Part shown: in pieces, positions 18,899 to 27,751 of the stretch
Position numbering within the stretch: the stretch's first letter is position 1
Layout of the letters: the number at the start of each line of letters is the position of its first letter
NCBI GenBank assembly: GCA_016932415.1
Contig: JAFGCX010000024.1
Location: forward strand, 1-27,751
Origin: Candidatus Krumholzibacteriota bacterium
GTDB taxonomy: Bacteria > Krumholzibacteriota > Krumholzibacteriia > Krumholzibacteriales > Krumholzibacteriaceae
Reading direction: 5' to 3'
Length of the DNA stretch: 27,751 nucleotides
Made by a program: the position numbers and the translations under genes
Notes under the pieces: generated by a model
The model's input: the letters and a program-made list of their open reading frames with translations, nothing else
Told to the model about the DNA's origin: nothing
Databases searched by the model: none

Positions 18899-21601
18899 TT
18901 GAAGACCCGATCGATACTAAATAAAATCGCAGTCATCGTCATCGCCCTGATCCCACTGATCTTTCCAGCATGTACAGGCGAGCCGTTCACTCCGGGAAAG
19001 ATCGAGGATGAATCCGCGTGGTATATCCAGAGCCCCGCGGTACGTAACAATGGCCTGAGGGATATTATCTTTATTGACGAAAATGAGGGAGTGGCGATCG
19101 GGACGGGAGGACTGATCCTTATCTCAAATGACGGTGGAAACACCTGGGGCGGGGTCGGCAGCGGCACCTTGAGCAACCTATACGGTATAGATATGAGAAA
19201 CTCCGGATCGGGGCTGGTCGTAGGCGATTCCGGCAGGCTTCTCAGTTCTTTGGACGGAGGACTCGCCTGGAAAAAGGAATCTATCGATCAGCGTAACAAC
19301 CTCAATAAGGTATCAATGACTTCTGATTCGACGGCGGTAGCTGTTGGATCATCGGGGATCATTCTCGGACTTGATTACTCCGGCAGCGAGTGGTCCGCGC
19401 GGGAAGTGACTGTTCCAAATCAGTTCAACTCGGTATTTTTCGCTTCGCCGGACACGGGATACGCGGCCGGATCATCGGGAACGATATTCAGGACATATAA
19501 CGGCGGGATCGACTGGGTGAGGTTATCATGCGGCGAGGATATCCACATAAACAGTATTTATTTCTTCGATGGGGAGAATGGTATTGCCGCGTGCGATGAG
19601 GGCGCTGTATTCAGGACTTCCGACATGGGAGAATCATGGACAAAGACGCAGCTGCTGACATCGATAGACTATAATTCTGTATATTTCATCGATCCATCCA
19701 CCGGTTTCATGGCCGGTTCCGGAGGTAATATAGTCAAGACATCCGACGGCGGCGAGTCGTGGTCTCCGCTGACAAGCGGCACGAACGAGGACCTGACGGG
19801 GATATTCTTCGCCGACGAACTGAGCGGTGTGGCGACAGGAATGAGCAGCACGATCCTTTTTACTTCTGACGGAGGGTCGAACTGGGACGATAAGGAGCCT
19901 TCCGGGATCACTTCCGATTATTACCGCTCTTTTATCGATGAATCGGGCATGGTGTGGGTCGTCGGATCTGGCGGTACGATCCTTTCGACGAGAGATGGTG
20001 GAACGATATGGGACCAGGCATCTTCCGGCGTTACGAAGACACTTTACGGATATTCAGTGATCGACGAGGCAAAAGCTGTCGTGTGCGGCGCGGGAGGAAT
20101 AATTCTATATACTGAAAACAGCGGGCTGAACTGGGAGGTCGTAGATTCAGGAACCGACAATACGCTATTTGATATCTTCGCCTCCGGCTCGAATCTTACC
20201 GCGGTGGGGATGGAAGGTACGATAATCATCTCGGCTTCCGACGCTTCTTCATGGAGCGAAAAGACAGGATCTGTCATTCCATATCTTACCGATCTGTATT
20301 TCCATGATTCTCTCAATGGCGTGGCCGTCGGATATTATGGAACCGTCCTTAGAACGATAGACGGTGGAGAGACATGGTCGTTTATAGAGAGCGTGACTGA
20401 GAGCGCCCTCTTCGCGATCGATTTCTGTGATCTTCTTAACGGAACGGCCGTTGGGGACAATGGAACGATCCTTGATACCGACGACGGAGGGAAAACGTGG
20501 GAATCACAGGCAAGCGGAACCGGAATGCGACTTGCCGGAGTAGACCGGTTAGATATTGCGACGTCCCTTGCAGTCGGAACAGATGGCCTTGTGGTCAGAA
20601 CGGTTAACGGTGGGATCTCCTGGGTATCAGAGACCAGCGGAACGGGGGAAGGCCTCTACGCGGTACTGATGATCGATTCGCAGAGAAATATCATCATGGG
20701 CGACAGGGGGACGATCCTCGAAAGCGATGATGGAGGAGATACGTGGAGCAGTATCAGCACGGGAATATTCACTTCGCTCAATTCAGTCTGGATGATAAGC
20801 GCCAGCAAAGTAATCGCCGTAGGGGAAAATGGAGCGATCGCGAAAACGGTCGACTCCGGTGTCCATTGGAATCCAGTATCGACAGACACAGAGATGGGGT
20901 TGTCGGGGATATGTTTTACCGATGACGAAAAAGGTTATATAGTCGGTGAAGGAGGGATAATACTCGAGTCGACTGATGGCGGGGTCACCTGGGACGAGGT
21001 GACAGGGCCTGTCGCGACAGAACTGAAGAGCATTTCCTTCTTCGACCTGTTAAACGGTATGGCGGCAGGTTCAGGAGGCACGATCATCCATACATCGGAT
21101 TCCGGGCTGAACTGGTCGGACAGATCGACGGGGTCAGGATCAAACCTCAATTGCATATTGATGACTGCTGATTCCTCCGCCCTGGCTGTGGGAAATGGTG
21201 GCGTGATTATATTCACAGATGATGCCGGACAGAACTGGGTGGAAAGGAATTCTCCGACTGTACTGGATCTTTCATCGGTCGCTTTCTCCGGTCCTTCCAC
21301 AGGGTTCGCCGTAGGGGCGGAAGGGATAATTCTCGGAAGCACCGACGGGGGAGCGACATGGAGTCCCGTAGTGTCAGGAACATCGACTGATCTTGACGCT
21401 GTATTTTATCTCGGAGATGATAATTGGATCGCGGCCGGCAAGAGAGGCGTGATCATAAAATCGGTCGATGGCGGAGCAAGCTGGGCCAGATCGACGCCGG
21501 TCACCGCGGCAGACCTCAGGGCGTTGTTCTTCACTGATGCGAATACCGGAACTGCCGTTGGAGAGGGCGGAACGATATTAAGGACTCTCACCGGCGGATA
21601 A
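18899..21601 (+). CDS. Lipoprotein made of 21 YCF48-like beta-propeller blades
   Basis: Secreted 900-residue protein. Residues 1-25 are a lipoprotein-type signal (hydrophobic IAVIVIALIPLI then FPAC, Cys25; the Phe at -3 makes the lipobox atypical). The remainder is 21 repeats of about 41 residues with core consensus AVGxxGTIxxTxDGGxxW, the YCF48/BNR-like blade. The first core is AIGTGGLILISNDGG; the last ends at RTLTGG without its Trp. Ycf48 itself is a seven-bladed propeller, so 21 blades suggests three propellers in a row. Ycf48 assists photosystem assembly, but there is no reason to infer photosynthesis; bacterial relatives are envelope proteins of unknown role. It starts at TTG with its own promoter and converges with the C39-like gene. 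Confidence 0.9.
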   Translation: MKTRSILNKIAVIVIALIPLIFPACTGEPFTPGKIEDESAWYIQSPAVRNNGLRDIIFIDENEGVAIGTGGLILISNDGGNTWGGVGSGTLSNLYGIDMRNSGSGLVVGDSGRLLSSLDGGLAWKKESIDQRNNLNKVSMTSDSTAVAVGSSGIILGLDYSGSEWSAREVTVPNQFNSVFFASPDTGYAAGSSGTIFRTYNGGIDWVRLSCGEDIHINSIYFFDGENGIAACDEGAVFRTSDMGESWTKTQLLTSIDYNSVYFIDPSTGFMAGSGGNIVKTSDGGESWSPLTSGTNEDLTGIFFADELSGVATGMSSTILFTSDGGSNWDDKEPSGITSDYYRSFIDESGMVWVVGSGGTILSTRDGGTIWDQASSGVTKTLYGYSVIDEAKAVVCGAGGIILYTENSGLNWEVVDSGTDNTLFDIFASGSNLTAVGMEGTIIISASDASSWSEKTGSVIPYLTDLYFHDSLNGVAVGYYGTVLRTIDGGETWSFIESVTESALFAIDFCDLLNGTAVGDNGTILDTDDGGKTWESQASGTGMRLAGVDRLDIATSLAVGTDGLVVRTVNGGISWVSETSGTGEGLYAVLMIDSQRNIIMGDRGTILESDDGGDTWSSISTGIFTSLNSVWMISASKVIAVGENGAIAKTVDSGVHWNPVSTDTEMGLSGICFTDDEKGYIVGEGGIILESTDGGVTWDEVTGPVATELKSISFFDLLNGMAAGSGGTIIHTSDSGLNWSDRSTGSGSNLNCILMTADSSALAVGNGGVIIFTDDAGQNWVERNSPTVLDLSSVAFSGPSTGFAVGAEGIILGSTDGGATWSPVVSGTSTDLDAVFYLGDDNWIAAGKRGVIIKSVDGGASWARSTPVTAADLRALFFTDANTGTAVGEGGTILRTLTGG
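19058..21598 (+). repeat. Array of 21 degenerate ~123-bp coding repeats (propeller blades)
   Basis: Repeat units encode GxxGxIxxTxDGGxxW cores spaced about 41 codons apart across the whole lipoprotein gene. The DNA copies have diverged, so the repetition is plain only at protein level, which argues for an old, maintained array rather than a recent expansion. Confidence 0.85.
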
Positions 21602-22567: not shown

Positions 22568-22701
22568 GGTTTTGGATGGATATTTTTTGGGGGTTTAAAT
22601 GGTATGGGGTTTTTCTTATCCTTGAATTATATCACTATTTCCCTTTATTCTTCGGTCCTGTGGCTATTCATTTTGCTTGTTTTAACCAGGGATGCTGCCG
22701 C

Positions 22702-25700
22702 ATGGACCGGATCATCATTAAAAACGCCGGTGAACACAACCTCAGATCGGTAGATCTCGAGATCCCGCGCGACTCACTGGTAGTTGTCACGGGAGTATCC
22801 GGTAGCGGAAAATCGTCGCTCGCATTCGACACTATATGCCGCGAGGCTCAGAGGCGGTATCTCAGGACTCTTTCTTCATACGCAAGAATGTACATCGGTA
22901 AGCTCGGAATGCCTGATTTCGAAATAATGACGGGTCTTTCACCATCGATCTCGATAGACCAGAAGACGGTCGTAAGGAATCCCCGATCGACGGTCGGGAC
23001 AATCTCGGGGTTGAGCGATCACCTGAGGCTCCTCTTTTCGAGGCTGGGAGACTGCGAGCCCGGAACCAGCTCCAGTCTTTTCTCCTTCAATTCGGAAAAA
23101 GGCGCCTGTCCCGAGTGCAAGGGTCTTGGCGTGGAGGACAGGATAGTGCCAGAACTCCTCATCTCGGACGATACGAAGACGATCCGCGAGGGTGCGCTCG
23201 TGCTGACTACTCCGAACGGGTATCTTGTCTATTCGCAGGTGACCCTCGATGTGCTAGACGAAGTCTGCCGGGCGCATGGCTTCAATATAGATATTCCATG
23301 GAAAGAACTGACCGCCGAACAGGTAAATGTCGTATTGAACGGTTCGGAAAGAATAAAGATACCGTTCGGAAAGCATCCGCTGGAATCGAGGCTGAAGTGG
23401 AACGGCCTCACGGCGAGACCCCGCGAAGAAGGATATTACAAGGGGATCCTTCCTGTGATGGAGGATATTCTCAGGCGCGACAGGAACAGGAATATCCTGA
23501 GGTTTGCCCGCTCAATAAAGTGCGACAGATGCGGTGGCCGGCGCCTGGGCAGGGAGGCTCTGGGAGTTACCTGCCTGGGGATGAACATCGCTGAGATGTC
23601 AGAGATGACAGTCGACCGGCTGCATGAATTTTTCTCCCTGATCGATCTCTCTGAAAAGGACAGTCCGGTGGGTGGACCTATCGCGCGGCAGATAATCGAA
23701 CGAACCGGCCTTCTCCGAGATCTGGGACTCGGCTACCTGACATGCGACCGAGAGTCGACTACCCTGTCAGGTGGAGAGGCGCAGAGGATCCGGCTGGCGG
23801 GACTTGCCGGAGGGGGGCTGCAGGGGCTCCTCTACGTACTGGATGAGCCGTCGATCGGCCTGCATCCGAGTGATAACAAGAAGATGCTCTCGATACTGAA
23901 AAAGCTCAGGGACAGGGGGAACACGGTCTTGGTCGTCGAACACGACGAGGAGACTATGTATAGCGCGGACTACCTTGTCGATATCGGTCCGAAGGCGGGA
24001 GTCCTTGGCGGAAAGATCCTCTACGCGGGGCCACCGTCCGATATGGAAAGCGCCGACCCGGCAAGTGAGACAATGGCGTATCTGCTGGGAAAAAAGAAGA
24101 TCAAAGCGCCTGATGTTTACCGCGAAGGCAGCGGTGAGATCAGGATAGGCGGAGCGCGGGGTTTCAATCTCAGGGATATCGATGTCATTTTCAGGACCGG
24201 CGCTTTCAACGTCGTCACGGGAGTCTCCGGCGCCGGCAAATCAACGCTGGTCAACAGGACGCTCTCGGCAATCCTAAAGGGCGAGGCTGAAAAAGGGGGA
24301 GAGCTCTGCCGAAGTTTAGAAGGGATTGATCTGATCGATTCGGTAATAGAGATCGACCAGGCGCCTATCGGGAGGACTCCGCGCAGCAATCCGGCCACCT
24401 ATACGAAACTATTCGACCTGATCAGAGATCTTTTCGCGGGCTGCCGGGTCTCCAGGGATCGCGGGTATGACAAGGGAAGGTTTTCGTTCAATGTCGAAGG
24501 CGGAAGATGCGAGGCCTGCCAGGGAGCGGGCGTGCAGCAGATCGGGATGCATTTCCTGGAGAATATCTCTGTTATATGCGAAGAGTGCGATGGGAAGAGG
24601 TTTGACGGCAGCACCCTCGAAGTCCTGTACAGAGGGGTCAACATCCATGACGTCCTGGAGATGCCGGTAGAAGAAGCGGCAAATTTTTTCAGTGACGACA
24701 AGAGGATAATGCGTCATCTCGGCGCGCTCCTTGATGTAGGCCTCGGATACATCACGCTGGGGCAGCCGTCGACAACCCTCTCGGGAGGGGAAGCGCAGAG
24801 GGTAAAACTCGCGTCACGGCTCGCGAGGCCATCATCCGGCAAGACACTGTATATACTCAACGAACCGACCACCTCTCTTCACACTGCCGATATAGCTATC
24901 CTGCTGCGGGCGATAAGAAGTCTGGTGGAGGCTGGAAATACCGTCGTTGCTATCGAGCATAATCTTGACTTCATCAGGTCCGCTGACTGGATGATAGATC
25001 TAGGCCCGGGAAGCGGTGAAGAAGGCGGAGGTCTTGTATTCATGGGAAGACCTGGTGAAGCGGTTCTGGCAGAAGAGTCGCTTACCGGCATGGCTTTAAG
25101 AGACGCGGCCCGGGATACCTTGGCGATGTCGATGGATATCGAAAGGGAAGAATCGGCAGGTCCGAAAAAGCAGATAGAGCTTCGCGGCGTGACAACGCAT
25201 AACCTCAGGTCGGTCGACGTCGATATTCCCCATGGAAAAATAACTGTCATAACAGGCGTATCCGGCAGCGGTAAATCGTCGCTGGCCTTCGACACTCTCT
25301 ACGCGCAAAGCAGGATGTTGTATTTCGGATCCCTTTCTACCCAGGCGAGAAGATATATGAAGAAAATTCCACTTCCGCCGGTCGAACAGACTGCGGGATT
25401 GAACGCCGCGATCGCTATCGGCCAGAATAGAAGCATCGACAACCCCCGTTCGATAATAGCGACGGTCACAGAGATATACGATCATTACAGGCTGCTTTTT
25501 TCCAGAGCCGGTATGGTCGGAGACCGCGCGACCGACTTTTCGGCAAGGATCTTTTCATTCAATCATCACCAGGGGGCCTGCCCGCAGTGCAGGGGACTCG
25601 GCGTGAAGACTGTCTGCAGCGCTGAAGCCCTCGTGTCACATCCACACCTTTCGCTGCTCAACGGAGCGATGGATGGAAGCAGGACGGGAGGGTTCTATGG

Positions 25701-27663
25701 TGAGCGTGGTGGCCAGTACCTTGCGATACTTGTGGCTGTAGGGGAGAAAAAGAGGATAGATTATTCCGTTCCCTACGACGAGCTTTCTTCTGAGGCGCGC
25801 CAGCTGGCGATGCATGGCGCGGGGGATGAATTCTTCAGCGCCGTATGGAGGTTCAACCGGAAAGGGCGCGAGGGAGAGCATCGATGGGAGGTAAGATGGC
25901 CGGGATTCTGCGGCCATGTCGAAAGGGAATACGAGCGGGTACATGCCGATAAGAGGGGCGAGAAGATGCTTCCGCTGATGGAGGATGTCACCTGCCCCGC
26001 CTGCTCGGGGGCGAGGTTATCGCCTGAGGTCCTGCGCGTTATCTTTGCCGGAAAAAACATCTCAAGCCTCTGCGCGATGACGGTCGACGAGACACTTCAG
26101 TTTCTAAGCTATATAGATGAAGACCAAAAAAATTCCGGTCTCACTGAAAGGCAAATCATTGTCACCGAAGCTCTCAGAAGAGAGATCGCCGGCAGGCTCG
26201 AGCCGATAAGACAGATGGGGCTGGGGTACCTGAGGCTGGACAGAAGGACGTCGACCCTTTCCGGAGGCGAGTTGCAGAGAGTGCTGCTGGCCGCTCAGCT
26301 CGGTAGCAGACTCTGCTCTGTCACCTATGTCCTGGATGAACCAACGGTGGGACTGCACGAGCGTGATACGGAAAAACTCATCGACATCATGAAACGGCTG
26401 CGCGACGAGGGAAATACTGTAATAGTCGTTGAGCATGACGAAAAGGTCATACGAGCCGCCGATCATATCATAGACATGGGACCTGGCGCCGGGACGTCTG
26501 GTGGCAGGGTGGTCGCCGAGGGCAACATCGATTCGATCGAATCAGATCCTTCGTCTCTCACCGGCATGTATCTCTCCGGATGGAAACGGATCGGCAGGGC
26601 TGATAGAAAATGGCAACAGTGTGACGGTCTTGAAATCAGGGGTGCCGAGGCGAACAACCTCAAGAATCTCGATCTGACGATACCGGCAGGCGGGATAACA
26701 GCTGTCACAGGGGTCTCGGGAAGCGGAAAATCGAGCCTTGTCTTCGATGTCATCGCATCTTCCTTTGAACGGAAGAAGCCGGCAGGTTGCAGGGAAATCG
26801 TAGGATTTGAACGGTTCGCGGGCGTCATCAGCATCGACCAGGGACCGATCGGAAGTTCTTCGCTGAGCAATCCCGCCACGTACTGCGGCATCTTCGACAG
26901 GATCAGGGAACTCTTTGCCTGCGAAAAGATCTCGAAAGAGCGCAAATACGCGAAGGCGCGGTTCTCATTCAATTCAAAGGGCGGGCGATGCGAACACTGC
27001 AGGGGAATGGGGACGAAAAAGGTGGAGATGGGATTTCTCGCTGATGTCCACGTTCCCTGCGAAGAATGTGGAGGCCGGCGCTATAATGAGGAGACTCTCG
27101 CGATCAAGCACAGGGGCAGGAATATCTTCGAGACCCTGAATATGACGATCGATGAGGCGAAAGAACTTTTCATCGATGACAGGATGTTGTCCGCCGCGCT
27201 CGATATCCTTTCATCGGTCGGGCTGGGTTATCTCCAACTTGGTCAGAGGTCGGACACACTGTCGGGAGGCGAGTCCCAGAGGCTGAAACTGGCTGCAGAA
27301 CTAATAAAGTCGCAAATGAAAAAAAGATCGGCCGGCGGATTATCTGAAAGTGCCGGGAAGAACCTGTATATCCTCGACGAACCGACGACCGGACTGCACT
27401 TTCAGGATATCGAAAGACTCATCGGAATATTCGACGGACTCGCTGCCGACGGCCACACAATACTTGTCGTTGAACATAATCTCGAAGTCATAGCGAACGC
27501 CGACTGGATAATTGACCTGGGACCTGAAGGGGGCGACGAGGGAGGCGGTATTGTGGCTTGTGGCGCCATGGATGCTATCATGGCATCTGCTTCTTCGTAC
27601 ACGGGGCAGGCACTGAGGGAGCGGGGCAGGCACAAAACCAAACAGGATCCCTATCCCACATGA
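22702..27663 (+). CDS. uvrA: Fused double UvrA2-type ABC protein (four ABC modules, no UvrB-binding domain)
   Basis: 1653 residues, about twice a UvrA. Two complete UvrA-like halves (about 1-815 and 820-1653) each have two ABC modules. Walker A motifs start at residues 31, 507, 852 and 1337; signatures are [24 protein letters not shown] and LSGGESQR; Walker B is LDEP at Asp381, LNEP at Asn720 (altered), LDEP at Asp1212 and LDEP at Asp1559. Zinc-finger pairs CPEC/CDRC, CEAC/CEEC, CPQC/CPAC and CEHC/CEEC are kept. Both halves pass from RLLFSR directly to FSFN in ~10-13 residues, so the UvrB-binding domain and its zinc finger are missing, as in UvrA2/DrrC paralogues. Likely role is DNA-damage or DNA-binding drug tolerance rather than standard excision repair. 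The ATG at 22702 has CAGGGA nine bases upstream and matches the family N-terminus; the in-frame extension to 22576 is rejected. Confidence 0.93.
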
Positions 27664-27704: not shown

Positions 27705-27751
27705 TGGTGCCGGAGGAGGGAATCGAACCCTCATGGTACCAAGTACCGGGG
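27705..27751 (-). tRNA. tRNA-Leu, 3' part only (anticodon outside the window)
   Basis: Read on the - strand: a variable arm GGTAC-TTG-GTACC, T-arm GAGGG-TTCGATT-CCCTC, acceptor strand CTCCGGC, discriminator A and an encoded CCA (27705-27707). The long variable arm marks a class II tRNA; acceptor CTCCGGC with A73 fits leucine rather than serine (G73) or tyrosine. The 5' part and anticodon lie to the right, so the isoacceptor cannot be read. Confidence 0.88.

Follow-up and report, generated by a model that had tools for sequence, protein, structure and literature searches.

What can a UvrA do that carries two UvrA units on one chain and lacks the domain through which UvrB is normally recruited, and from where does such a protein derive? 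The question is raised by a gene at the end of a contig of a Candidatus Krumholzibacteriota bacterium (assembly GCA_016932415.1, contig JAFGCX010000024.1), of which the whole stretch analysed, here called the window, spans 27,751 nucleotides. UvrA is the textbook generalist sensor of DNA damage. A reading made from the letters of the window alone (the sequence-only reading) had described the encoded protein as a covalent UvrA2 dimer, stripped of the UvrB-binding domain in both halves and perhaps dedicated to intercalators or crosslinks.

Two UvrA halves in a single frame

The gene (P0001; 22702–27663, + strand; contig C24 of genome G000) is a single uninterrupted frame coding for 1653 aa plus a stop. 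An alternative ATG occurs in frame upstream, at 22576, while the nearest relative (L007, 73%), located on a Candidatus Krumholzibacteriota contig of the same genus, begins at the site equivalent to 22702. The UvrA equivalog model NF001503 spans both halves with 1859.7 bits. Four Walker A sites (aa 31, 507, 852 and 1337), four LSGGE signatures (aa 355, 693, 1186 and 1520), four Walker B sites (aa 377, 716, 1208 and 1555) and eight CxxC motifs, amounting to two zinc modules per half, are encoded, and the DNA-binding or insertion domain (UvrA_DNA-bind, PF17755) is matched once in each half (E = 6e-24). Each half thus contains two ABC modules, zinc modules 2 and 3 and an insertion domain, with a single Walker B aspartate replaced by asparagine. 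The motif-based positions include the second Walker A of the N-half, at the distal ATPase site (24220–24246, +; aa 507–515), and the zinc module 3 hairpins of the N-half (24508–24594, +; aa 603–631) and the C-half (26989–27075, +; aa 1430–1458).

Both AlphaFold2 half-models align with UvrA structures across almost their full length. The N-half, as modelled (22702–25146, +; aa 1–815), has a pLDDT of 85.5 and matches 2r6f_B over 791 residues (Z 47.0), while the C-half (25168–27660, +; aa 823–1653), modelled as aa 816–1653 with a pLDDT of 85.8, matches 3zqj_B over 785 residues (Z 49.3). The Z scores against the UvrA2 structure 2vf7 are 44.4 and 44.9 for the N- and C-half, respectively. That the chain holds two complete UvrA halves is therefore borne out by motifs, domain matches and fold. 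The halves share 40.6% identity and are joined by a linker of about 17 aa (25117–25167, +), which is variable among relatives. In some of these (L012, L021 and L025) the linker is of low complexity, with TPSTPTG or VEGVELVE repeats, which suggests a flexible tether between the UvrA halves.

Absence of the UvrB-interaction domain

The UvrB-interaction domain (UvrA_inter, PF17760) is matched nowhere in the protein, while two genes elsewhere in the genome are matched by the identical search. At the site occupied by this domain in single UvrAs, the RLLFSR block is separated from FSFN by only 12 aa in the N-half (23026–23091, +) and 15 aa in the C-half (25489–25563, +), neither junction giving a PF17760 match. 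In each half this stretch is some 140 residues shorter than in E. coli UvrA and resembles that of Deinococcus UvrA2. The absence of the domain from both halves, as originally proposed, can be confirmed. The protein lacks the PF17760 domain and zinc module 1 that characterise class I UvrAs, and has the domain content of class II, which is defined by the absence of both. It would be unable to recruit UvrB through the standard domain, the absence of that domain being directly observed. The missing docking domain leaves other UvrB contacts possible, because signature domain II likewise contacts UvrB (PMC6486640).

Distribution of the short double UvrAs

Double UvrAs devoid of the UvrB domain, hereafter short doubles, occur in the Krumholzibacteriota, the Acidobacteriota including Aminicenantes, the Elusimicrobia, the Planctomycetota and the Bacteroidota, with frames of about 1540–1700 aa. 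The survey for an architecture of about 1650 residues thus finds it in several phyla, and chance can be excluded as its origin because the same architecture is found again in them. A search with the N-half insertion domain showed the short type in 10/78 genomes within the window's phylum, in 22/297 of the phylum of G081, in 6/294 (strong matches) of that of G095, and in 3/47 and 2/149 of those of G084 and G088, each sample including its centre genome, which was picked for having a double and accounts for one match per count. Among the matches listed for a junction probe in 296 Bacteroidota genomes, a double-length frame was found only in the centre genome. This scattered occurrence is as expected from gene transfer or repeated loss. 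Stand-alone halves were not found in the N-half insertion domain surveys, which, fragments aside, match double-length frames only; two short Planctomycete cases that were examined extend to the sequence edge.

Two further arrangements were observed. The Planctomycete genome G095 encodes both a long double of 1923 aa with two UvrB domains and a short double of 1624 aa with none (L126 and L139), and no single UvrA was found in it. At L104 (3844–9582, −), a frame of 1913 aa ends in a UvrA of the second type; its first 970 aa have no Pfam match and may represent a chance open frame.

Conservation of the insertion domains

The zinc module 2 and insertion domain regions of the N-half (23107–23538, +; aa 136–279) and C-half (25579–26010, +; aa 960–1103) both have 138 aa between the cysteine pairs, but share only 15% identity. 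Across the short type this spacing is 138 residues in all 32 N-halves (L013 counted) and in 30 of 32 C-halves, with 141 in the other two, as opposed to 110 to 145 in single UvrAs and 133–135 (N) and 137–141 (C) in long doubles. The N-half insertion domain has zero gaps across the short doubles, and 43 of the 144 columns of its zinc module 2/insertion region are invariant among 11 proteins. The N-type motif runs from YSQVT...GKHx to RNxNILRF, whereas the C-type motif is KTGRFYG...GQY...W.GF...EYxRKHADxRG; between the halves of any one protein, identity of the insertion domains is just 12–19%. Profiles of both types find UvrA structures and nothing else, the N-type being aligned over its first 80–90 positions only.

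When the insertion domain and the core, taken as the part after it, were compared by mean pairwise identity, short doubles gave 64.4 vs 49.0% for the N-half and 45.9 vs 43.5% for the C-half (ratios of 1.32 and 1.07). The corresponding values are 32.0 vs 58.0% (N) and 29.3 vs 54.9% (C) in long doubles, 30.5 vs 60.6% in UvrA1, 33.0 vs 51.2% in second UvrAs and 55.2 vs 66.7% in class II UvrAs, the last from three sequences only; the ratio in UvrA1 and long doubles is about 0.5. At the level of sequence, the constraint is thus reversed in the short doubles, and only there among the groups compared, in that the ATPase core varies more than the insertion domain.

Asymmetry of the ATPase sites

In the N-half, the second of the two Walker B motifs (LYILNEP; 24847–24879, +) has an asparagine in place of the aspartate and retains the glutamate. 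The substituted position is also occupied by Asn in L007 and by Arg in L008, with the Glu intact. In the published scheme (PMC6486640) this site counts as distal. The substitution, which the sequence-only reading did not mention, makes it probable that one of the four ATPase sites is degenerate. Other lineages deviate elsewhere, for example through LSTGE signatures in the C-halves of Bacteroidales, and as judged from these motifs, ATPase asymmetry between the halves recurs among the short doubles, the site not always being the same.

Origin of the short double UvrAs

In an unrooted tree of halves, a branch with support 99 sets the N-halves apart, and other branches do so for the C-halves (96) and the single UvrAs (83). 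The short N group (96) and the short C group (99) remain when the insertion domain and UvrB region are left out. A more careful tree, built from the N-halves together with single UvrAs, groups short with long doubles (99/99), short doubles with one another (100/100) and single UvrAs with UvrA2 (99/99). The fusion is accordingly not recent; the halves belong to one old double-UvrA lineage. The fusion may have united two different UvrAs or have arisen through internal duplication. Of the "covalent UvrA2 dimer", the single-chain double UvrA without standard UvrB docking holds, while descent from UvrA2/DrrC is not supported in that form, UvrA2 being placed with the single UvrAs. Direct kinship of the short doubles with UvrA2, and with it descent from a fused UvrA2, is disfavoured by the trees, but AU tests on the N-halves do not reject a grouping of the short ones with UvrA2 (p 0.39 and 0.19).

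The long Planctomycete doubles offer a point of comparison for the UvrB domain. In 12 genomes their N-half matches PF17760 at 107–129 bits, with a second, weaker match (36–62 bits) in the C-half of the same gene in 11 of these; the long double is the sole PF17760 gene in 11/12, G711 having another of 1858 aa. Among the short doubles, the UvrB domain is gone from both halves apart from L013 (Eisenbacteria), which has it in the N-half only, yet already has the insertion domains of the short type, and which is the first branch among the short N-halves with moderate support (94/87). Loss of the UvrB domain most likely took place after the fusion, because the N-half of L013 keeps it. The simplest order would be fusion, then change of the insertion domains together with loss of the C-half UvrB domain, and finally loss of the N-half domain. 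Fusion thus probably came first and domain loss second, separately from the class II UvrA2.

Proposed function and other UvrA genes of the genome

An insertion domain that is more constant than the engine it is attached to and that differs between the halves, in a protein that has lost its link to UvrB, implies a specific substrate. We give about even odds that the short double works independently of UvrB, using ATP to sense or remove a specific lesion or DNA-bound ligand. In such a mechanism, the two halves would fold onto each other in the manner of a UvrA dimer. Being separately encoded, their insertion domains could have diverged and become fixed, giving an asymmetric clamp which, to judge from their conservation, would recognise a single specific kind of distortion, adduct or bound small molecule. 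Most likely as in the class II UvrA Ecm16, ATP-driven binding and release would displace or shield the ligand or lesion. The ancestor would be a fused UvrA akin to the Planctomycete type, which lost its UvrB domains stepwise and whose descendants coexist with separate UvrAs retaining the domain. More tentatively, the short doubles may constitute a functionally distinct class of UvrA, a permanently asymmetric single-chain sensor whose two differing, strongly conserved insertion domains read one specific and widespread lesion or ligand without UvrB. That this would be an intercalator or a crosslink, as the sequence-only reading had it, is a guess.

The short double is not the sole UvrA of its cell, because two more are encoded in the genome (assembly of 3.11 Mb, 95.5% complete), both with PF17760: one of 967 aa on contig C10 (132 bits) and one of 929 aa on C36 (50 bits). 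The uvrB gene is on C34 (1010 bits). The advised check for a separate canonical uvrA was thus positive, and another UvrA-type gene is present in all 16 double-bearing genomes checked, in G095 in the form of the long double. The C36 UvrA, near position 59449 (L089), has a short insertion spacing of 110 residues beside its weaker UvrB-interaction domain, and clusters with "second UvrAs" from other genomes of its phylum and of the Bacteroidota. The company of uvrB and a class I UvrA, along with the ATPase, zinc and insertion modules kept in the halves, would also suit an accessory recogniser in nucleotide excision repair, which finds a class of lesion and passes it to the ordinary UvrA-UvrB through mixed dimers or a loadable state of the DNA. 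This is the less likely role, as an ordinary UvrA is to be expected in the genome anyway, the built-in partner lowers the likelihood of mixed dimers, and no linkage of doubles to uvr genes was seen at related loci.

The unusual invariance of the insertion domains could instead reflect contacts with a partner protein or binding to DNA of a special structure, with a chromosomal, regulatory or defence role in place of damage tolerance. Two PADLOC models for the MADS defence system, mad3 and mad8, give matches to the ABC modules of the protein with E values of 1e-145 and 2e-61, but these models are short (374 and 314 positions), and matches to such modules are to be expected of UvrA-like ATPases. 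The scan for mad genes covered this protein alone, on a contig that ends 88 bases downstream of it. Among 31 related loci, none of the neighbouring gene families is shared by more than 5, which argues against an operon or cluster partner and leaves neither a system to be built nor a neighbour hinting at drug tolerance, and no relative of the N-half insertion domain was confirmed in viral contigs. A non-repair role is hence rather improbable. The lost Walker B aspartate and the further degenerate ATPase motifs in Bacteroidales members could be taken as signs of a decaying, non-functional paralogue, a notion with hardly any probability given the long open frames in several phyla and the gapless N-half insertion domain, with a mean identity of 64%.

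Two other features of the window were noted. A predicted 900-aa protein with many GTxGTILxTxDGGxxW-type repeats is encoded at 18899–21601 (+), and the sequence at 27706–27751 (−), judged by eye, looks like the 3' portion of a tRNA gene, the remainder being cut off by the contig end. Insertion associated with a tRNA was set aside, a tRNA being present at few of the related loci.

Comparison with known UvrA systems

The two features are known separately, fusion from some UvrAs and the absence of the UvrB domain from others. A literature search, with subscription papers mostly outside it, so that an earlier description is possible, found no account of short doubles, of stepwise domain loss in a fused lineage or of reversed insertion-domain conservation. 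In the ordinary UvrAs compared here, the insertion domain is far less conserved than the core, the opposite of the short doubles. With protomers that can be mutated separately, the latter represent a natural UvrA in which dimer asymmetry is testable, namely which side reads and which ATPase site fires.

The fused excinuclease subunit A model NF001885 (1809 positions), which we take to be of the chlamydial type, has the same tandem UvrA architecture; this type was compared through the model alone, against which the short double scores 1084.3 bits, below the cut-off of 3054, and the long Planctomycete double L029 scores 1305. Class I UvrAs (E. coli UvrA and the C10 protein) share the ABC modules, zinc modules 2 and 3 and the overall fold, with 43–46% identity beyond the missing domain.

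A fused UvrA has already been reported for Planctomycetes (PMC8567305), to which the long doubles of about 1900–2000 aa (L029 and L169–L174) correspond. It shares with the short double the arrangement of two halves in tandem, which belong to the same N- and C-lineages, the N-halves of both types forming one clade (99/99). It differs in that its N-half has a strong UvrB-interaction domain and its C-half usually a second, weaker one, where the short double has neither, in its variable rather than fixed insertion domains, and in being mostly the only PF17760 gene of its genome, whereas the short double is accompanied by other UvrAs.

The class II UvrAs (Deinococcus UvrA2, 2vf7; Ecm16, 7sh1; DrrC) likewise lack the UvrB-binding domain and zinc module 1, but are homodimers of single-unit chains of about 750–870 aa, as opposed to two different halves fused in 1653 aa. 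Resistance to echinomycin is conferred by the class II UvrA Ecm16 with no need for UvrA, UvrB, UvrC or UvrD, and the substrate specificity of Ecm16 depends on its insertion domain (PMC10192343). By analogy, Ecm16 would appear to be the closest working analogue of the short double UvrA.
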